Assembly (NCBI RefSeq): GCF_001304615.2 | Contig: NZ_CP032683.1 | Location: 2,604,001 to 2,668,000 of the forward strand | Length of the DNA: 64,000 nt | Direction of reading: 5' to 3' | From: Methanosarcina flavescens | GTDB lineage: Archaea > Halobacteriota > Methanosarcinia > Methanosarcinales > Methanosarcinaceae | In this document: in pieces, positions 15,453-43,343 of the stretch | Position numbering within the stretch: the first letter of the stretch is position 1 | Layout of the letters: the number at the start of each line of letters is the position of its first letter | The notes under the pieces: model-generated | What the model was told of the DNA's origin: nothing | What the model saw: only the letters and a program-made list of their open reading frames with translations | Database searches by the model: none | Position numbers and translations under genes: made by a program

Positions 15453-16454
15453 ATGAAAAATAAAGGGAAGCTATGTTCAACAGCTTTAGCTTCGGTATTC
15501 CTGGTTTTTGTTTTTTTATTTTTAACCTCAGCTTCAGCTTCAGCGGCTCAAGTTACAAAAATTGGCACAGGATACGATCCTGCTGTCTATGGTAATGAGG
15601 TAGTATGGACAAATGGGGTTGTTATTCATCTATACAACCTGACCGATGGAACAGACACTGTAATTAGCTCTTCTGGAGCATCCAGTCCAGATATTTACGA
15701 AAACAAAGTAGTGTGGCATGATATGAGTAGCGGGACACCAAAGCTTGCTGTGTACGATATTCCTACAGCTACAAAAACTTACATAACGCAGAATGTAGAC
15801 CAATATAGCAAACCTGCTATTTACGGCGACAGAATAGTCTGGAGTGCAAATGATAGCGTGTATCTGATGGATATGTCTACGTCCACGCAGACTGTGATTG
15901 GAAACGGTAGTAATCCCGACATATATGGCACAAAAGTGGTATATTATTCATATTCCGAAGATCCAGAAGCAGATATAACTGTCAGAATGTATGACATCAA
16001 TACGAAGGAAAAAGCAACTGTAACTTCATATGGTTATCCAAATATACCTCGTATATGGGGTTCTAAAGTCATCTGGTCTGATGTGTATAACCATCAGGGA
16101 TATATCGTGATGTACGATATGGCAACAAATAAAACCATAGATGTCACACATCCACTTGACACCGATCCAGATGGAAATGAATACGGCGCCAGTACAGGGA
16201 CATACATTGCCATACAGGATGACAAAATTGTATATAACAAATGCGTTGATGATTACGAAGGCAAACCTGGAGTATATGTATACAATATAACTGAAGGACA
16301 AAGTACACTGATATATGGCTACTCTGATGACGTTTATACGACGCCAGAAGTATACAATAACACTATTGTATGGGGGATGGACAAGAATTACGTTGATGAT
16401 GCAGAAAACAATGATATCTATTTATACAATCTTTCATACAATCTTTCAGAGTAA
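15453..16454 (+). CDS. Secreted beta-propeller surface protein, apparently missing its C-terminal part
   Basis: This 333-residue protein has a clear signal peptide (hydrophobic run VFLVFVFLFLTSASASA). It then has repeated blades of the YxNxVVW / DIYGxxVVY type, a TolB-like beta propeller found in many Methanosarcina surface proteins. It is closely related to the first ~340 residues of the 778-residue protein encoded downstream, but stops right after the propeller and lacks PKD domains and a membrane anchor. PKD coding remnants lie 160 bp further on, which suggests a once longer gene. It could still be a secreted, unanchored protein. The ribosome site GGGGGTAAATAA is the same as that of the paralogue. 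Confidence 0.75.
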   Translation: MKNKGKLCSTALASVFLVFVFLFLTSASASAAQVTKIGTGYDPAVYGNEVVWTNGVVIHLYNLTDGTDTVISSSGASSPDIYENKVVWHDMSSGTPKLAVYDIPTATKTYITQNVDQYSKPAIYGDRIVWSANDSVYLMDMSTSTQTVIGNGSNPDIYGTKVVYYSYSEDPEADITVRMYDINTKEKATVTSYGYPNIPRIWGSKVIWSDVYNHQGYIVMYDMATNKTIDVTHPLDTDPDGNEYGASTGTYIAIQDDKIVYNKCVDDYEGKPGVYVYNITEGQSTLIYGYSDDVYTTPEVYNNTIVWGMDKNYVDDAENNDIYLYNLSYNLSE

Positions 16455-17268: not shown

Positions 17269-19605
17269 GTGAAAGGTAAGGGGAAACTATATTCGGTAGC
17301 TTTAGCTTTAACAATTTTCTTTTTTCTGTGTTCAATTTTATCTTCAACCGTAGCATTAGCGGCGCAGGCGACAAAAATTGGCAATGGGACTGATCCTGCT
17401 GTTCATGGGAACAAAGTGGTATGGACAGACAATGGTGTTATCCACGTTTATGACCTGACCGCCAGAAAAGGGACTGCAGTTAACTCTTCTGCAGCATCTC
17501 ATCCAGCTATCTATGGAAACAAAATAGTGTGGCATGATAAGAGTAGCGGGACACCAAGGCTTGCTGTATATGATATTCCTACAGCTACAAAAACTTACAT
17601 CACGCAGAATGTAGACCAATATAGCAAACCTGCTATTTACGGCGACAGAATCGTGTGGAGTGCGGATTACAACGAAACCAGCTACAATTATAATGTATAC
17701 ATGTGGGACATATCAACCTCTACACTGACTAAAATTGCGGAGGGTAATGATCCTGATATATACGAGACCAAAATAGCGTATGGTTATGACGATGATTATG
17801 GGCGAAACATTGTTGTTTATGATGTTAATACTAAGGAGACTATAAATGTACACCATTCCAGTCAGGTATCCAATCCGCATATATACGGTAATAAAGTGAT
17901 ATGGTCAGACTTCCATAGCAGAGACGGATATATCCAGATGTATGATCTTGATACTAAAAAAATTATAGACGTTACCAGCGACACTACAGGCAATACTTTA
18001 TATCCTGATATCATCACTGATGCTGGAGCTGACACTGGCACTCACCCCAATATCCATGGTGACAAAATCGTATATTCAAAATCCGGTAATGATCAGTTTG
18101 GTTATGCGGGTGTATATGTTTATGACATTCCTTCTGCAAAAAGCACTCCAATTGATATTTATCCAGAGGGAACTCACACAACACCAGACGTGTATGGCAA
18201 CATAGTTGTTTGGGGGTTTGACTCTGCCTTCGGTTCTGGTATCAGCATTACAGACATCTATTTATGTGACCTTACAACTGAATTTGAAATACCTGAAGCA
18301 ACTTCTACTGCAAACGTAACATTCTTTGAAATACCTGAAGCAACTTTTACTGCAAACGTAACATTCGGTGCAGCACCTTTGGATGTTTTATTTACTGCAA
18401 CTGGAATTGATATTGAGTCAGCCTCATGGCTCTGGGATTTTGGGGACGGAACTAATTCAGAACGTGCTATGGATGTCACGCACACATTTACTAATCCCGG
18501 CACATATGATATTACTCTAAAAGTAGCCGGTGAGGCAGGCAACGTTTCTATAGAAAAACGGGGTTATATAAGGGTCACAGATTCAGTTATTCCGGACTCT
18601 GGAATTCCAATTGCAAATTTCAGTAGCAATGTCACAAAGGGTTATGCTCCTCTGGCTGTGCAGTTCAGTGATACTTCCCAGAATGCAGTTTCAAGGGCGT
18701 GGGACTTCAATAACGACGGAATACCTGACTCCAGTGATCCCAATCCCGTTTATGTGTATACATCTCCGGGAACGTACCTTGTAAACCTGACAATATACAA
18801 TGCAAATGGGCTTTCCTCAATGGGTACTACAATAACTGTACTGGAAAGCAGTTCCAGCAGTGATAGCAACTCAAATAGTGATGGAAATAGTGGAGGAAGC
18901 AAAAAGAGCGGTGGTAGCAACCGTGGCGGTGGTGGCGGTGGAGGGGGTTCTCCTGAGCCTGCAAAAAATGTTGAAGTAAAGGAACTTTCCCAGGCTTACG
19001 TTAAAAGCGGGAAACCTGTAAAGTTTGAATTCGCAAAGAACGCAACCTGTGTTATGTATGTGAGTTTTGATGCGAAAAAAACCCTGGGCAAAACTACAAC
19101 CATTGCTGAACAACTCAAAGGGAAGTCAGCTCTCGTCTCCGAATTGCCGTCAGGAGAAGTGTACAAATCCTTTAATACATGGATTGGGAGTGGCGGAGTA
19201 GCAACCTCAAAGAATATAGAAAACCAGACTGTCTGCTTCAAGGTCGAAAAAGCATGGATACAGGATAAAAAAATTTATCCGGATTCCATTACCCTTAATG
19301 GATATGTCGAGAAAGAATGGAAGCAACTTCCAGTAGAACCATCAGGAAAAGATGATAAGTTTCTGTATTTCACAGCAAAAGCTCCTGGTGTTTCTTCTTT
19401 TGCAATAACCGGCAATGCAGAAAGGGCCTCTGAGGAAGTTGTGACAGAAACACAGCTTGATATGGACGACGAAAATGTTAATAAAAACTATACACTAAAT
19501 AATGAGTCGAAAACAGAACAAAAAGGAATCCCAAGTATACCCGGATTTGCAGTGAGCTTGGGAATTTTCTGCATCCTCGGGTTATTCCTTTATATACGGA
19601 AATAA
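17269..19605 (+). CDS. Cell-surface protein: beta propeller, two PKD domains, PGF-pre-PGF domain and PGF-type sorting tail
   Basis: This 778-residue exported protein has a signal peptide at residues 1-32. A TolB-like propeller follows to about residue 335. Two PKD domains come next (WLWDFGDGTNSE near 388 and RAWDFNNDGIPDSS near 480), then a Ser/Asn/Gly-rich linker with a poly-Gly run near 555-565. After that is a PGF-pre-PGF domain (about 575-720). The protein ends with IPGFAVSLGIF, a hydrophobic helix and basic residues, the PGF-CTERM pattern that archaeosortase-type enzymes are thought to process for lipid anchoring. The start is GTG at 17269 after GGGGGT. It probably sits on the cell envelope in adhesion or S-layer association; the ligand is unknown. 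Confidence 0.85.
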   Translation: MKGKGKLYSVALALTIFFFLCSILSSTVALAAQATKIGNGTDPAVHGNKVVWTDNGVIHVYDLTARKGTAVNSSAASHPAIYGNKIVWHDKSSGTPRLAVYDIPTATKTYITQNVDQYSKPAIYGDRIVWSADYNETSYNYNVYMWDISTSTLTKIAEGNDPDIYETKIAYGYDDDYGRNIVVYDVNTKETINVHHSSQVSNPHIYGNKVIWSDFHSRDGYIQMYDLDTKKIIDVTSDTTGNTLYPDIITDAGADTGTHPNIHGDKIVYSKSGNDQFGYAGVYVYDIPSAKSTPIDIYPEGTHTTPDVYGNIVVWGFDSAFGSGISITDIYLCDLTTEFEIPEATSTANVTFFEIPEATFTANVTFGAAPLDVLFTATGIDIESASWLWDFGDGTNSERAMDVTHTFTNPGTYDITLKVAGEAGNVSIEKRGYIRVTDSVIPDSGIPIANFSSNVTKGYAPLAVQFSDTSQNAVSRAWDFNNDGIPDSSDPNPVYVYTSPGTYLVNLTIYNANGLSSMGTTITVLESSSSSDSNSNSDGNSGGSKKSGGSNRGGGGGGGGSPEPAKNVEVKELSQAYVKSGKPVKFEFAKNATCVMYVSFDAKKTLGKTTTIAEQLKGKSALVSELPSGEVYKSFNTWIGSGGVATSKNIENQTVCFKVEKAWIQDKKIYPDSITLNGYVEKEWKQLPVEPSGKDDKFLYFTAKAPGVSSFAITGNAERASEEVVTETQLDMDDENVNKNYTLNNESKTEQKGIPSIPGFAVSLGIFCILGLFLYIRK

Positions 19606-27528: not shown

Positions 27529-28797
27529 ATGATCATGACTGAGAATATAAAAACGATTTCACTCGCGTTTGGATATGGAATTTCTGAGTTGAGTATACCT
27601 GAGAAAAACATGTCCAGTATCATCCTGCCTTCGGAATCAGAAATAAAGGAAGATCCTTTCTCTTTGGTCAAAAAAGCCCTTGAAAATCCTATAAAAAGTG
27701 AAAGGCTTTCTGAGATTGTAAACCCTGATTCCAAGGTTGCAATTATAGTTAGTGATGTTACAAGACCAACTCCTACTGAAAAAATTCTTCCTCCTCTGCT
27801 CGAAGAGCTTTATCTTGGAGGAGCAAAAGATGAGAATATCACTATTATCTTTGCCCTCGGGCTCCATCGCTTACAGACTGAAGAAGAGTGTCGCCAGCTT
27901 GTAGGTGAGGAGATCTTTGAAAAAATTAGATGCATCCAGCATGACAGGAAAAGGTGCAGGTATCTTGGAGAAACGAGTTTTGGAACGCCTGTTGAAGTTT
28001 TTGAAGAAGTAGTCAACTCTGACGTTATTATAAGCACAGGCATAGTGGAATTTCACTATTATGCAGGGTATGGAGGAGGAGGGAAATCCATCCTTCCAGG
28101 GGTCAGTTCGGAAAAATCCATACTTTCGTTTCACAGCTTTTACAGCAAACTCTTTGAAGGGGATCCCCTCTCAGGCAGAGCCGACAGCCCGGCAAGACAG
28201 AATATAGAGGAAGCTGCAAGGATTACAGGCCTTGATTTCATCTTGAATGTTGTAATAAACAGCAAAAAAGAGATTGTTGCTGCCGTTGCAGGCAATTTCA
28301 TCGAAGCCCACAGGAAAGGTGCGGAACACGTTGATGCCATGTATAAAGTGCCCGTAGAGCCTGCGGATGCAGTCGTTGTTTCCTGCGGTGGTTTTCCAAA
28401 AGACATCAATCTTTATCAGGCAATAAAATCCCTTGAACACGCAATTCCTGCCGTAAAAGAAGGAGGCTCGATTATCCTGGTAGCCGAATGTGCAGAAGGA
28501 ATTGGAAACAAAGTTTACGAATGCTGGAACAGGGAATGCAGGGATCCTAAAGAGGCAGTTGAACGTTTCAAAAATTGTTTTGAGTTCGGCGGACACAAAG
28601 CTGCTATTGTCGGGAAGGCTGCAAAAGAATTCAAGCTCTACCTTGTCTCAAAACTTCCCGATGCAGAAAGTGAAAAAGCCTTTTTCACGCCTGTAAAAAG
28701 CATAGAAGAAGCACTTGGGAAAGTATTTTCCGAAAATTCCGATGCTAAAGTCCACATCATGCCTGAGGGAGGGTGGACTTTACCTGTAAAACGGTAA
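27529..28797 (+). CDS. larA: LarA-family nickel-dependent racemase/epimerase, copy 1
   Basis: LarA enzymes racemise lactate or other alpha-hydroxy acids using a nickel-pincer nucleotide cofactor. This 422-residue copy has DVTRPTP at about 76-82, GLH at 111-113, and the block VEFHYYAGYGGGGKSILPG. That block puts His176 ten residues before Lys186, with His202 sixteen residues after. These spacings equal His174, Lys184 and His200 of the Lactobacillus enzyme (acid/base His, cofactor-bound Lys and nickel ligand). The start may be ATG 27529 or 27535. It is the first of three tandem copies on this strand. No larB, larC or larE cofactor genes are in the window. Confidence 0.85.
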   Translation: MIMTENIKTISLAFGYGISELSIPEKNMSSIILPSESEIKEDPFSLVKKALENPIKSERLSEIVNPDSKVAIIVSDVTRPTPTEKILPPLLEELYLGGAKDENITIIFALGLHRLQTEEECRQLVGEEIFEKIRCIQHDRKRCRYLGETSFGTPVEVFEEVVNSDVIISTGIVEFHYYAGYGGGGKSILPGVSSEKSILSFHSFYSKLFEGDPLSGRADSPARQNIEEAARITGLDFILNVVINSKKEIVAAVAGNFIEAHRKGAEHVDAMYKVPVEPADAVVVSCGGFPKDINLYQAIKSLEHAIPAVKEGGSIILVAECAEGIGNKVYECWNRECRDPKEAVERFKNCFEFGGHKAAIVGKAAKEFKLYLVSKLPDAESEKAFFTPVKSIEEALGKVFSENSDAKVHIMPEGGWTLPVKR

Positions 28798-28924
28798 AAA
28801 GGGTTATAAATAAAAATAAAATTTTGAATTGCCTTTGAAATTATTATAGTTCTTTTTATACCTGTTTATCCCTATTATTTTACAACAAAGAAAAATGGTA
28901 TCAAGATAAAGCATCGGCATAACC

Positions 28925-30187
28925 ATGACTGCAAACATAAAAAAAATACCACTTTCTTTCGGAAGCACGGGAGTTGAGTTTGAAATTCCGGAAAGAAACC
29001 TTGCAAGTGTAATTTTACCTTTGGAACCTGAAATAAAGGAAGATCCTTTCTCTTTGGTCAAAAAAGCCCTTGAAAATCCTATAAAAAGTAAAAGGCTTTC
29101 TGAGATTGTAAACCCTGATTCCAGGATTGCAATTATAGTTAGTGATGTTACAAGACCAACTCCTACTGAAAAAATTCTTCCTCCTCTGCTCGAAGAGCTT
29201 TATCTTGGAGGAGCAAAAGATGAGAATATCACTATTATCTTTGCCCTCGGGCTCCATCGCTTACAGACTGAAGAAGAGTGTCGCCAGCTTGTAGGTGAGG
29301 AGATCTTTGAAAAAATTAGATGCATCCAGCATGACAGGAAAAGGTGCAGGTATCTTGGAGAAACGAGTTTTGGAACGCCTGTTGAAGTTTTTGAAGAAGT
29401 AGTCAACTCTGACGTTATTATAAGCACAGGCTCAGTGGAATTTCACTATTATGCAGGGTATGGAGGAGGAGGGAAATCCATCCTTCCAGGGGTCAGTTCG
29501 GAAAAATCCATACTTTCTTATCATAGTTTTTACAGCAAACTCTTTGAAGGGGATCCCCTCTCAGGTAGGGCCGATAATCCGGCAAGGCAGAATATAGAGG
29601 AAGCTGCAAGGATCGCAGGTCTTGATTTTATCCTAAACGTTGTACTTGATGGTAAAAGAAGAATAGTTGCTGCTGTTGCCGGAGATTTTATAAAAGCTCA
29701 CAGGAAAGGAACCGGGATTGTGGATTTTATGTATAAGGTGCCTGTAGAGCCTGCGGATGCAGTCGTTGTTTCTTGCGGGGGATTTCCAAAGGATATTAAC
29801 CTCTTCCAGGCGACAAAATCCCTTGAAAATGCAGTTTATGCTGTGAAAAAAGGAGGCTCAATAGTGCTTGTAGCCGAATGTGCTGAAGGAATCGGGGATA
29901 GCATATATGAGCGCTGGAGTAGAGAATGCAAAACTCCCGATGAGGTGGTACAAAAATTCAGAAAATGTTTTGAGTTCGGCGGACATAAAGCTGCCACTGT
30001 CGGAAGGGCTGCAAAAGATTTTAAACTTTACCTTGTCTCAAAGCTTCCAGAAACTGAGAGCAGAAGTGCCTTCTTTATCCCTGTTACAAGTGTAGAAGAA
30101 GCGCTTGAAAATATTATTTCCGAAAACCCGAAGGCTAAAATCCATGTTATGCCCAATGGTGGGTGGACTTTACCTGTAATGAAATAA
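28925..30187 (+). CDS. larA: LarA-family nickel-dependent racemase/epimerase, copy 2
   Basis: This 420-residue paralogue has all LarA landmark residues (His174, Lys184 and His200 by position, plus DVTRPTP). Its 5' end and 3' half differ clearly from copy 1. Bases 29031-29517, however, match 27641-28127 with only about five differences, a sign of gene conversion or very recent exchange. The gap to copy 1 is 127 bp and AT-rich, so the copies may have their own promoters. Substrate specificity could differ through the divergent C-terminal half. Confidence 0.85.
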   Translation: MTANIKKIPLSFGSTGVEFEIPERNLASVILPLEPEIKEDPFSLVKKALENPIKSKRLSEIVNPDSRIAIIVSDVTRPTPTEKILPPLLEELYLGGAKDENITIIFALGLHRLQTEEECRQLVGEEIFEKIRCIQHDRKRCRYLGETSFGTPVEVFEEVVNSDVIISTGSVEFHYYAGYGGGGKSILPGVSSEKSILSYHSFYSKLFEGDPLSGRADNPARQNIEEAARIAGLDFILNVVLDGKRRIVAAVAGDFIKAHRKGTGIVDFMYKVPVEPADAVVVSCGGFPKDINLFQATKSLENAVYAVKKGGSIVLVAECAEGIGDSIYERWSRECKTPDEVVQKFRKCFEFGGHKAATVGRAAKDFKLYLVSKLPETESRSAFFIPVTSVEEALENIISENPKAKIHVMPNGGWTLPVMK

Positions 30188-30297
30188 GAAGGTGACATAA
30201 AGGATGAAGACTATAAAAGAAAATAGCCCCAAAATAATACAGTTATATAAGAATTATAAATACAGTTATATAAAGAATTATAAAAAAGGCAATTAAA

Positions 30298-31575
30298 ATG
30301 CCATATAATACTGCAAACACAAAAACAATATCACTGGCCTTTGGAAATATGTCACTTGAGCTGGATATTCCGAAACGAAATATGTCCAGTATTATTCTAC
30401 CCTCTGAACCTGAAAAAAAGGAGAGAGGAGATTTTTTAATTAAAAAAGCCCTTGAAAATCCTATAAAAAGCAAAAGGCTTTCTGAGATTGTAAACCCTGA
30501 TTCCAGGGTTGCAATTATAGTCAGTGATGTTACAAGACCAACTCCTACTGAAAAAATTCTTCCTCCTCTGCTTGAAGAGCTTTATCTTGGAGGAGCAAAA
30601 GATGAGAATATCACTATTGTCTTTGCCCTCGGGCTCCATCGAAACCAGACCGAAGAGGAATCCAGAAGACTAGTCGGAGAAGAGATTCACAAAAAAATCC
30701 GCTGCATCCAGCACGATACCAGCAGGTGCAGACGTATTGGCATAACCTCACGAGGAACCCCGATTGAAATCTTTGAAGATGTTCTGGATGCAGATCTTGT
30801 TATAGGTACTGGAAGCATTGAATTTCATTATTACGCAGGGTACAGCGGAGGAGCGAAGTCTGTGCTGCCTGGTGTAAGCTCGAAAGAGGCAGTAATAGCA
30901 AACCACAAAATGATGATTGACGAGAAGGCTGTTTCCGGAAGGGTCGATGGCCCTGTGCGGCAGGACATGGAAGAAGCTGCAAAAATTACCGGTCTTGACT
31001 TTATTTTGAATGTAGTGCTTGACAGTAAAAAAGAAATCGTTGCTGCCGTTGCCGGGGATTTTATCGAGGCTCACAGGAAAGGCGTGGAGGTTGTGGATTC
31101 CATGTATAAGGTGCCTGTAGAGCCCGCAGATGCAGTTATAGTTTCCTGCGGAGGTTTCCCGAAAGATATCAACCTTTTCCAGGCAAATAAAGCCCTTGAC
31201 AATGCAACCCAAGCCGTGAAGGCAGGCGGCTCCATTATCCTTGTGGCCGAATGTGCCGAGGGAATTGGAAATCAGGTGTATGAATGCTGGAACAGGGAAT
31301 GTCGGAGCCCTGATGATGCAATCGAGCGTTTCAAACAATGTTTCGAGTTCGGTGGACACAAAACTGCAATAATTGCTAAAATTTCAAAAAAATTTAAGCT
31401 TTACCTGGTTTCAAAACTCCAGGATGAACAAATAAGATCTGCCTTCTTCACTCCGATGGCAAGTGTAAATGACGCCTTATCCGCGGTGCTCTCGGAAAAC
31501 CCTGATGCAAAAATCCACCTTATGCCGCATGGGGGGCAGACGCTGCCTGTCAGAAAGGAAACAAAAGGAAAATAA
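30298..31575 (+). CDS. larA: LarA-family nickel-dependent racemase/epimerase, copy 3
   Basis: This 425-residue paralogue keeps the His177-x9-Lys187 pair and His203 (numbering one higher than copy 1) and the TRPTP motif. Around the nickel site it differs from the other two: GYSGGAKSVLPG followed by SSKEAVIANHKMMIDEKAVSG. That may mean another substrate. About 200 bp (30442-30641) match copies 1 and 2 at roughly 97 percent, while the rest is much more diverged. It converges on the symporter gene 77 bp away. Confidence 0.85.
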   Translation: MPYNTANTKTISLAFGNMSLELDIPKRNMSSIILPSEPEKKERGDFLIKKALENPIKSKRLSEIVNPDSRVAIIVSDVTRPTPTEKILPPLLEELYLGGAKDENITIVFALGLHRNQTEEESRRLVGEEIHKKIRCIQHDTSRCRRIGITSRGTPIEIFEDVLDADLVIGTGSIEFHYYAGYSGGAKSVLPGVSSKEAVIANHKMMIDEKAVSGRVDGPVRQDMEEAAKITGLDFILNVVLDSKKEIVAAVAGDFIEAHRKGVEVVDSMYKVPVEPADAVIVSCGGFPKDINLFQANKALDNATQAVKAGGSIILVAECAEGIGNQVYECWNRECRSPDDAIERFKQCFEFGGHKTAIIAKISKKFKLYLVSKLQDEQIRSAFFTPMASVNDALSAVLSENPDAKIHLMPHGGQTLPVRKETKGK

Positions 31576-37334: not shown

Positions 37335-37934
37335 ATGTCCGTGGTTTCGAAATATAACCGGATCTCAATGGTTTATGGCATCATAGAATTGCCTGTAGAG
37401 CTTCTCCTTTACGGCAGGTGGAGAGAAGAAGCCCTCTCAAACCTGAGCGGCAAGGTTCTGGAAGTCGGGGTGGGCACAGGAAGGAATCTTAAATATTATC
37501 CGGTAGGCTGTTCGGTAATCGGAATAGATAACAGCACAGGGATGCTTGAAAAAGCCCGGAAGAAGGCAAGAGGCATGAGAAATATTACTCTTTATCTTAT
37601 GGATGCCGAGCACCTTGAATTTCCAGATGATAGCTTTGATTATGTGGTTACGACTTTTGTCCTCTGTTCGGTTCCCGATCCTGTGAAGGCTCTTAAAGAG
37701 ATGAGACGAGTCCTCAAGCCTTCAGGAGAGCTGATAGCTCTTGAGCATATGCGGAGTAGCAACCCGTTTATTGCCCGCATTGAGGATTTGATCAATCCGA
37801 TAATGTTCTTCTTTATCTGGGATGATATGACCCGAAATACGATGGGAAACATAGAAAAAGCCGGCTTCACCATTAAGAAAGCAAAAAACCTTGCTTTTCA
37901 GGACGTTTTTAAGAAGATCAGGGCAAAACCGTAA
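37335..37934 (+). CDS. Class I SAM-dependent methyltransferase, copy 1
   Basis: This 199-residue UbiE/type-11-like methyltransferase has the SAM loop VLEVGVGTGRN at about residues 36-46. IGIDNSTGMLEKAR, DAEHLEFPDDSFDYVV and the motif post-III GFTIKKAKNL follow. The next gene is a tandem paralogue of identical length, about 75 percent identical by eye. The methyl acceptor is unknown; quinone/methanophenazine, lipid or arsenic methylation cannot be separated from sequence. ATG at 37335 has no strong ribosome site. Confidence 0.85.
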   Translation: MSVVSKYNRISMVYGIIELPVELLLYGRWREEALSNLSGKVLEVGVGTGRNLKYYPVGCSVIGIDNSTGMLEKARKKARGMRNITLYLMDAEHLEFPDDSFDYVVTTFVLCSVPDPVKALKEMRRVLKPSGELIALEHMRSSNPFIARIEDLINPIMFFFIWDDMTRNTMGNIEKAGFTIKKAKNLAFQDVFKKIRAKP

Positions 37935-38071: not shown

Positions 38072-38671
38072 ATGTCCGTGGTCTCAAAGTATAACCGAAT
38101 CGCACCCATATATGAACTGATAGACTTGCCTCTGGAACTTTTCTTTTTCCGGAAATGGAGAAAGGAAGCTCTTTCAAACCTGAGTGGAAAAGTTCTGGAT
38201 GTCGGGGTTGGCACAGGAAGAAACCTGATGTATTATCCAGCAGGCTGCCGGGTGATAGGGATCGATAAAAGCGAAAAAATGCTCAGGAAAGCCCGGGAAA
38301 AAGCGAAAGCCATGAAAAACGTTACTCTTTATCCTATGGATGCCGAACAGCTTGATTTCCCGGATAACAGCTTCGATTACGTGGTAACGACTTTCGTGCT
38401 CTGCACAATCCCTGACCCTGTAAAAGCTCTTAAGGAAATGAGACGCGTTCTAAAACCATCAGGGGAACTAATATCCCTTGAACACGTGCATAGCAGTTAC
38501 CCTTTTATTGATTTCATGGAACATTTGATTAATCCAGTTCTATTTTTCCTGCTTGGAGATCATACTACACGAGATACTGTGAGGAATATCGAAAAAGCCG
38601 GGTTCACGATTAAGGAAGAGAAAAGACTGGCTTTCAGGGATGTTTTCAGGAAGATTCGAGCGAAGCCGTAA
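38072..38671 (+). CDS. Class I SAM-dependent methyltransferase, copy 2
   Basis: This is the second 199-residue copy of the tandem pair, with VLDVGVGTGRN at about 36-46 and the same motif order. Upstream DNA is also similar between copies (CCAAAAAGCTAATCGTGA / CCAGAAAAGCTAATCATGA and TTAATGTCCGTGGT), so the duplication included the 5' region. The substitutions are conservative in the SAM site and denser in the C-terminal part, where acceptor specificity often lies. Confidence 0.85.
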   Translation: MSVVSKYNRIAPIYELIDLPLELFFFRKWRKEALSNLSGKVLDVGVGTGRNLMYYPAGCRVIGIDKSEKMLRKAREKAKAMKNVTLYPMDAEQLDFPDNSFDYVVTTFVLCTIPDPVKALKEMRRVLKPSGELISLEHVHSSYPFIDFMEHLINPVLFFLLGDHTTRDTVRNIEKAGFTIKEEKRLAFRDVFRKIRAKP

Positions 38672-42485: not shown

Positions 42486-43343
42486 ATGGTTAAATCTGGA
42501 ATCACAAAGTCAGTGTTACTGCTGACATTTATAGGATTGATAATAATCGGACTGGGGCAGCCGATCGCAGGAGCTGCAGATAAGGGAAAATCGAGCGGAC
42601 AGGTCTGTGTTTGTAAGGAGTACTCCAACAATACCACCATGAATTGTGAAAAAGATTATTGCAACAATATTACCATGAAATATGTAGAGAACTACACTTG
42701 TTGTCTAATGGATTGTGGAAAAGACTACTGCAATAATACTATGGACTGTAAAGAGGGCTATGATTGTTGTGTATATAACTGTGAGCAGGACTACAATCGT
42801 TGTTTGATGGACTGTGAAACGGATTATGGCAACAATACCACCATGAACTTTGAAAAGGATTATTGTAACAAGACCATGATGCCCTGTATGATGATGGATA
42901 ACGACTCAATGAATGACACCATGATGCACCACTGTATGCACCACTGCATGCATTGTATGATATACTGTATGAAAGGGGATCAATCAGAGAACGCAACTAT
43001 GATGCCCTGTATGATGGGCGACGATTCAATGAACGAGACCATGATACCCTGTATGATGGGTAACGATTCAATGAACGAAACTATGATGATGCACTGTTGT
43101 ATGATGCCCTGTATGATTGAAGATCATACGGACAATGCTACTATGATGCCCTGTATGATAGGCAACGATTCAATGAACGAGACCATGATGTACTGTATGA
43201 TGTGCGCCGATTCAATGAACGAAACTATGATGATGCACTGTTGTATGATGCCCTGTATGATGAAAGATCATACGGACAATGCTACTATGATGCCCTGTAT
43301 GATGAAAAATTACACGGGCAACGAAAGCTGCTGCCCGGCTTGA
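42486..43343 (+). CDS. Secreted methionine/cysteine-rich repeat protein, probable metal-binding
   Basis: I know no described family for this 285-residue protein. It has a signal peptide (hydrophobic residues about 9-29, cleavage likely after AGA). The mature part has, by my count, 34 Cys and 53 Met in roughly 250 residues. The first half is Cys/Asp/Tyr-rich (CCLMDC, CNNTMDC, DCETDY). The second half consists of units like DSMNETMMPCMM and DNATMMPCMM, with HHCMHHCMHC at the junction. Most units contain an N-x-T/S sequon, so it may be heavily glycosylated. There is no anchor; it ends ESCCPA. Met and Cys clusters favour copper(I), silver or mercury binding. Neighbours are HMA chaperones and CopA. 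Function is inferred. Confidence 0.8.
   Translation: MVKSGITKSVLLLTFIGLIIIGLGQPIAGAADKGKSSGQVCVCKEYSNNTTMNCEKDYCNNITMKYVENYTCCLMDCGKDYCNNTMDCKEGYDCCVYNCEQDYNRCLMDCETDYGNNTTMNFEKDYCNKTMMPCMMMDNDSMNDTMMHHCMHHCMHCMIYCMKGDQSENATMMPCMMGDDSMNETMIPCMMGNDSMNETMMMHCCMMPCMIEDHTDNATMMPCMIGNDSMNETMMYCMMCADSMNETMMMHCCMMPCMMKDHTDNATMMPCMMKNYTGNESCCPA

Follow-up and report, generated by a model that had tools for sequence, protein, structure and literature searches.

Recurrent gene conversion within one part of the coding region as the probable history of three tandem LarAH6-type racemase genes in Methanosarcina flavescens

In the genome of Methanosarcina flavescens three predicted nickel-pincer racemase genes of the LarAH6 type, here called copies 1, 2 and 3 (c1, c2 and c3), follow one another in tandem, head to tail, all on the plus strand. 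They lie in the window analysed here, a stretch of 64,000 nucleotides (contig NZ_CP032683.1, positions 2,604,001 to 2,668,000). A first-pass annotation of the window had suggested recent recombination between parts of these genes, and the analysis reported below leads us to conclude that the three paralogues have very probably been subject to recurrent interlocus gene conversion limited to part of the coding sequence. The genes are the following:

27529 to 28797, plus strand: copy 1, predicted LarAH6-type nickel-pincer racemase gene (open reading frame, Pfam domains Lar_N and LarA_C, 562 bits with NF052593)
28925 to 30187, plus strand: copy 2, predicted LarAH6-type gene (open reading frame, 552 bits with NF052593)
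30298 to 31575, plus strand: copy 3, predicted LarAH6-type gene (open reading frame, 596 bits with NF052593)

The start codon of c1 is the ATG at 27529 or that at 27535. All three deduced proteins contain the Lar_N and LarA_C domains (Pfam) and pass the NCBIfam cut-off for LarAH6 malate racemases (500 bits) with the scores given above. They miss the cut-off for lactate racemases (NF033504, 460 bits) with 331, 327 and 359 bits for c1, c2 and c3, respectively; the label larA of the first-pass annotation therefore holds as the name of the superfamily and not in the sense of lactate racemase. The best solved relative is the malate racemase Mar2 (E value 1e-110 for c1 and 1e-114 for c3, the two that were searched). 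The equivalents of LarA residues D72, R75, H108, H174, K184, H200 and K298 (LarA and Mar2 are numbered as in the excerpted text of PMC7583248) are identical in all 59 aligned sequences described further below. With the family cut-off passed and the catalytic residues in place, c1, c2 and c3 are predicted to be members of the LarAH6 family. As in Mar2 and LarAH6 proteins (PDB 6d6z/7s91; excerpts of PMC7583248 and PMC11770544), the catalytic and cofactor residues and the GHK motif are present; unlike in Mar2, the loop after the catalytic histidine has YY (59 of 59 sequences), where these excerpts give YK for Mar2 and FF for LarA. The residues that mark the substrate site in Mar2 give a mixed picture, the lysine of helix 14 being present in 58 of 59 sequences, the loop YK and the Q before the catalytic lysine being absent from c1, c2 and c3.

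The genome is a single contig of 3,283,688 bases (completeness 99.99%), in the whole of which the only Lar_N matches at an E value of 0.001 are c1, c2 and c3. Adjacent larB and larC genes (G000:C1:1146520-1148401) and a larE-type gene (TIGR00268, 2146596-2147369), each scoring above its cut-off, make synthesis of the nickel-pincer cofactor plausible, and the organism can plausibly make it.

Between c1 and c2 the first-pass annotation had counted about 5 differences over 487 base pairs (bp), 27641-28127 against 29031-29517, in a setting of strongly diverged flanks. In the codon alignment the number is exactly 5 in 487 columns, at c1 positions 27700, 27734, 27736, 28042 and 28043; they fall in four codons, and all five are nonsynonymous, none synonymous. 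Since the nearest flanking differences are at 27639 and 28128, the tract extends at most over these positions:

27640 to 28127, plus strand: conversion tract in c1, maximal extent (5 differences, 0 synonymous; tree and approximately unbiased (AU) tests)
29030 to 29517, plus strand: conversion tract in c2, counterpart of the c1 tract, on the same evidence

The flanks are indeed strongly diverged: in 60-base windows the identity of c1 and c2 is 52-67% farther upstream; from 28126 to about 28215 it forms a shoulder of 85-90%, which looks like an older exchange, and beyond 28216 it is 63-87%. When the variable columns among c1, c2 and c3 were permuted in a GENECONV-like test, none of 20,000 shuffles reached the longest identical run of c1 and c2, which spans 69 variable sites; the largest shuffled run had 26. 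The tract had been said to cover the active-site block, which is right for the equivalents of D72, R75, H108, H174 and K184; that of K298 lies outside, and the tract ends four bases before the H200 codon.

The c1/c2 exchange postdates the divergence of M. flavescens from G028, the closest sister genome included in the comparison (hereafter the sister). In 27643-28125 there are no synonymous differences between c1 and c2 at about 110 synonymous sites, whereas in the C-terminal part (28216 onward) their synonymous divergence (dS) is 1.39. Within the tract, dS to the sister orthologues is 0.12-0.16 for c1 and 0.21-0.34 for c2. None in 110 corresponds to a rough upper bound of dS near 0.03 (an estimate by the rule of three), compared with about 0.15 to the sister, and the last c1/c2 exchange therefore falls late after the split. 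At 14 sites in the tract c1 and c2 have the same state, which is unlike the state common to sister copies 1 and 2. Of the sites that distinguish sister copy 1 from sister copy 2, 38 lie upstream of the tract and 31 within it; c1 and c2 each carry the state of their own orthologue at 37 of the former and at none of the latter. The tract tree unites c1 and c2 in a clade (support 99/91), and pairing of either with its orthologue was rejected (p-AU 0.0016 and 0.00026); on the C-terminal tree it is the pairing of c1 with c2 that was rejected (p 1.3e-5; the two AU values obtained for the flank are 1.3e-5 and 1.6e-5). The proposed recombination between paralogues is thus borne out by synonymous sites, by tract-specific trees and topology tests and by the 14 shared-state sites.

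Near identity of this kind could also come about in the assembly or consensus, if reads of c1 and c2 had been mixed over the tract, and 99% identity is, by general knowledge, within the range in which short reads are misplaced. We regard such an artefact as highly improbable because five differences in four codons remain, including two different changes in codon 170, because the assembly consists of one contig and is 99.99% complete and because other genomes have tracts of varying identity at the same place. Codon 170 (c1 28042-28044, c2 29432-29434), four residues before the catalytic histidine, is ACA in sister copies 1 and 2, ATA in c1 and TCA in c2, so that each copy has undergone a separate change since the exchange. 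A faster change of the protein after conversion was also considered (5 nonsynonymous and 0 synonymous differences between c1 and c2 versus 10 and 14 between c1 and its sister orthologue, Fisher p 0.042); the comparison was chosen post hoc, and the effect is not claimed.

Copy c3 took part in an exchange as well, an older one of about 200 bp. The 200-bp part of c3 that had been reported to share the tract at about 97 percent was recovered as the best segment of both pairs (+1 for a match, -3 for a difference, hence break-even at 75% identity), with 97.0% identity to c1 and 97.5% to c2:

30442 to 30641, plus strand: older tract in c3, shared with c1 27670-27869 and c2 29060-29259 (best segment and region-A tree)

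Region A, as we call about 27643-27870 (for the tree 27646-27870, 225 columns), places c1, c2 and c3 of this genome together with the copies of G028 in one six-row clade (95/88). In this region dS is 0.19 between c1 and c3 and 0.24 between c3 and its sister orthologue, and the c3 exchange therefore looks older than that between c1 and c2. The word recent in the first-pass annotation applies to c1/c2 and does not extend to c3. Of the catalytic residues only the equivalents of D72, R75 and H108 are covered by the c3 tract.

Lar_N matches were found in 29 of 30 genomes of the genus, this one included. The window and 27 further loci, 28 arrays in all, yielded 62 gene pieces, of which 59, from 27 genomes, were aligned; left out were the first copy of G002, which is split into two frames and counted as two pieces, and a fragment of G020 at the end of a contig. 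Of the 30 genomes G015 (fragment), G020 (fragment) and G026 (no match) are absent from the trees. In these genomes copy 3 and copies 1/2 have repeatedly been homogenised over the N-terminal segment, which, with differences between genomes, begins at codons 1-46 and ends at codons 112-137, while in the second half of the genes three orthologous lineages remain cleanly separate. In the C-terminal tree the copy-3 group and the copy-1/2 groups follow gene position and not genome, except for the first two copies of L117; in the region-A tree the copies group largely by genome or close species. The tree of region A requires 12 changes of the copy-3 label (an approximate count, being the minimum on one 225-column tree in which 25 of 56 inner branches are starred and 8 are open) and those of the downstream regions B and C of the alignment one each, and a copy-3 clade was rejected in region A (p 2e-6). 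In region A, pairs from the same genome have a median dS of 0.43 (32 pairs), compared with 1.18 for pairs from different genomes (832 pairs) and 1.13 for copy-3 orthologues (351 pairs); the corresponding C-terminal medians, 1.88 for the same genome and 1.95 for different genomes, are near saturation. The best segment is centred in region A in 28 of the 32 within-genome pairs of copy 1 or 2 with copy 3 (22 genomes) and in 1 of the 351 pairs of copy-3 orthologues.

The segment might be alike through purifying selection alone, that is, because its protein sequence cannot change. It contains the equivalents of D72, R75 and H108, invariant in 59 of 59 sequences, and the best segment lies there in 454 of the 832 between-genome pairs as well, which we read as older, inherited exchanges. 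The excess identity is, however, synonymous and found mainly within genomes, the segment is not specially constrained, the median nonsynonymous divergence (dN) of copy-3 orthologues being 0.109 in region A, compared with 0.108 in B and 0.080 in C, and all 5 c1/c2 differences are nonsynonymous. Selection as the sole cause is ruled out by the comparison of synonymous sites, and we give it a very small probability. The first-pass annotation had held that the same identity pattern in distant species would speak for selection and against conversion. The pattern does recur: 19 of 22 multi-copy genomes have at least one pair of copy 1 or 2 with copy 3 whose best segment is in this block, and 12 of 22 lie above the between-genome 95th percentile. 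Conversion is not refuted thereby, since the excess is synonymous and mainly within genomes; the shared pattern indicates instead that conversion recurs.

Copies that stand head to tail and vary in number from 1 to 3 among genomes could also have arisen by independent recent tandem duplications in each lineage. Against this, the C-terminal clades are orthologous throughout the genus, and a whole-gene duplication cannot give a gene of which one half is young and the other old. Furthermore, in a protein tree rooted with 16 hand-picked loci from outside the genus, the 32 type-1/2, 27 type-3 and 16 outgroup rows are each set apart by a branch (supports 98, 82 and 99), so that the split between types 1/2 and 3 lies inside the Methanosarcina rows and outside the outgroup. 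Separate duplications, of the alternatives considered here the least probable of all, are ruled out by the C-terminal and outgroup-rooted trees, the region-C trees not being grouped by genome except for copies 1 and 2 of L117. The duplication looks confined to the genus Methanosarcina: 51 loci (L024-L077) not titled Methanosarcina gave a single match each, on contigs some of which are too short to exclude a second copy. From the duplication onward the copy-3 lineage has a branch of 0.049, compared with 0.149 for copies 1/2.

Some arrays deserve separate mention. The first two copies of L117 (G011) are 98-100% identical from column 28246 on, in the half where the copies of M. flavescens have diverged, which is either a separate, very recent exchange or an assembly effect. 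The first copy of L108 (G002) is split into two frames of 316 and 120 codons by a frameshift or a sequencing error. A single racemase copy, of the copy-3 type, is present in L113 (G007), L121 (G016), L127 (G023) and L128 (G024); two of these four assemblies are 92% and 79% complete, so that a copy may have been missed there.

As to the direction of the c1/c2 exchange, transfer from c1 to c2 appears more likely and is favoured here without being shown. In region B c1, c2 and both sister copies lie outside a seven-row clade (100/99) of copy 2 from other species, and their nearest rows beyond the sister are copies 1. Of the derived states, 8 are common with sister copy 1 versus 3 with sister copy 2.

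The right-hand edge of the copy-3 exchanges is in nearly the same place across genomes. All 14 within-genome pairs above the 95th percentile end at 27869-27944, and positions separating copies 1/2 from copy 3 begin with codon 138, at 27946. (A position was taken as separating when it was conserved to at least 85% in each group; eight first copies of a two-copy clade were excluded from the comparison of copy 1 with copy 2.) The features concerned are:

27946 to 28206 of c1, plus strand: stretch with 15 of the 18 positions distinguishing copies 1/2 from copy 3, densest in 28126-28206
30898 to 30969, plus strand: counterpart in c3 of the dense block 28126-28206 (from alignment columns)
28423 to 28425 of c1, plus strand: codon before the catalytic lysine (position of LarA V297 and Mar2 Q293), encoding I in c1, T in c2 and N in c3; outside the tracts

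The dense block encodes residues 198-224, around and after the nickel-ligand histidine (equivalent of LarA H200), and includes a 3-residue indel. Directly before the catalytic lysine, 30 of the 32 copies 1/2 have T; of the 27 copies 3, 21 have N and 5 have S. According to the excerpted text of PMC7583248, this position, which unlike here is Q in Mar2, has been proposed to influence substrate choice. Copies 1 and 2 are separated from each other at 8 positions, none of them in region A or B. Exchange between these two extends farther than that with copy 3: in M. flavescens it runs to 28127, with the older-looking shoulder behind it, and in 10 of 10 pairs the best segment reaches 28439 or beyond.

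Two explanations of this edge have to be weighed. Selection may set it just before codon 138, or conversion is real and the edge comes from sequence divergence only, region A never having diverged enough to escape. The latter concerns the selection step alone, and its odds are not to be added to those of the other alternatives. It is a serious contender, if clearly short of even, since the within-genome identity of copies 1/2 with copy 3 falls to 45-78% in the 60-base bins of 27946-28185, which is low for homologous recombination. The separating residues, however, concentrate just past the edge (0 of 76 columns in region A, 4 of 85 in region B and 11 of 30 in 28126-28215), and the median dN of the block 28126-28215 is 0.039 among copy-3 orthologues versus 0.41-0.43 between types, so that the differences are being kept and do not drift. 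Because the differences are conserved on each side, we give selection somewhat better odds than divergence alone.

Two other pairs of paralogues in the window served as controls. A pair of methyltransferase genes (37335-37934 and 38072-38671) showed even divergence, with 66-81% identity per 60 bp. The other pair (15453-16454 and 17269-19605), which look secreted by eye and of which the second has PKD domains, is 88-96% identical per 60-bp bin over about 180 bp and 51-73% in the flanking bins, a candidate for a second conversion tract in the window. The stretches upstream of c1, c2 and c3 look unalike by eye, and no exchange at the promoter level is apparent. An open reading frame at 42486-43343 encodes 285 amino acids, is very rich in Met, Cys, Asp and Asn and consists in part of 144-bp tandem repeats (93% matches); it has no Pfam match at an E value of 0.001, and the product is possibly metal binding.

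Several of the results weigh against the interpretation given here and have to be set beside it. The shuffle test did not flag c1/c3 or c2/c3 (2221 and 5520 of 20,000 shuffles reach the observed run); with few variable sites in the c3 segment the test has little power there, and the case for the c3 exchange therefore rests on dS and the trees. In region A alone the pairing of c1 or c2 with its sister orthologue was not rejected (p 0.22 and 0.17). Only 14 of the 32 within-genome pairs, from 12 genomes, exceed the between-genome 95th percentile, and the count of label changes and the between-genome pairs with their best segment in region A, both given above, belong here as well. One of the two other paralogue pairs in the window has a short candidate tract, and the racemase locus thus need not be special. 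The evidence on direction is weak, in that the fork in region B which holds the group is open and sister copy 2 changes faster, and at the right-hand edge the data do not separate selection from plain sequence divergence.

The mechanism that we propose would be ordinary homologous repair between neighbouring copies, or between the chromosome copies of a polyploid cell, with copying only where the genes are alike enough. RadA-type repair and polyploidy are presumably properties of Methanosarcina. Conversion into the copy-specific block from codon 138 onward would be stopped by mismatch or purged by selection. If copies 1/2 and copy 3 have different jobs, selection would act against an overwriting of this block; the catalytic segment would stay common and the specificity segments private. 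A wider interpretation is that conversion acts as a standing exchanger of modules within one enzyme fold: the catalytic segment (up to codons 112-137) would circulate among the paralogues of each Methanosarcina genome, the genus having seen some twelve exchanges, selection for different substrates would fix the border just before codon 138, and the racemases would co-evolve in one part and apart elsewhere. To this we can give almost, and not quite, an even chance.

Recurrent and long-lasting concerted evolution is known in prokaryotes from mtmB, mtmC, mtbB and mtbC of the Methanosarcinales, from tuf and from others, and the excerpted text of PMC6053082 names gene conversion as its driver. As in those genes, paralogues within a genome are closer than orthologues between species, the phenomenon recurs, and the order includes Methanosarcina; unlike in the cases described in these excerpts, conversion in the racemases affects only part of the coding sequence. 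The 26 genes in two tables of that paper include no racemase. A conversion limited to one domain, the MtrA domain, has been described for mtrA-1 and mtrA-2 of methanogens (excerpts of PMC4632066), likewise from topology and permutation tests and likewise with a shared converted domain and a copy-specific remainder. There the unshared part is, according to the same excerpts, a distinct transmembrane domain that arose by shuffling and fusion, whereas both parts of the racemases are homologous and the copy-3 edge lies inside the N-terminal domain (limits 30-265 in Mar2, excerpts of PMC7583248). A literature search, judged in part by title and made without supplementary files and subscription papers, found no report of gene conversion in these racemases. 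The process, gene conversion and its limitation to a domain, is thus known, and its occurrence in these genes is apparently unreported.

Trees of Methanosarcina racemases and the assignment of copies mislead if the N-terminal part is included. The residues that separate the copies indicate where differences in substrate are to be sought, and the racemase triplet offers a natural test case for what limits conversion between paralogues, selection or sequence divergence.

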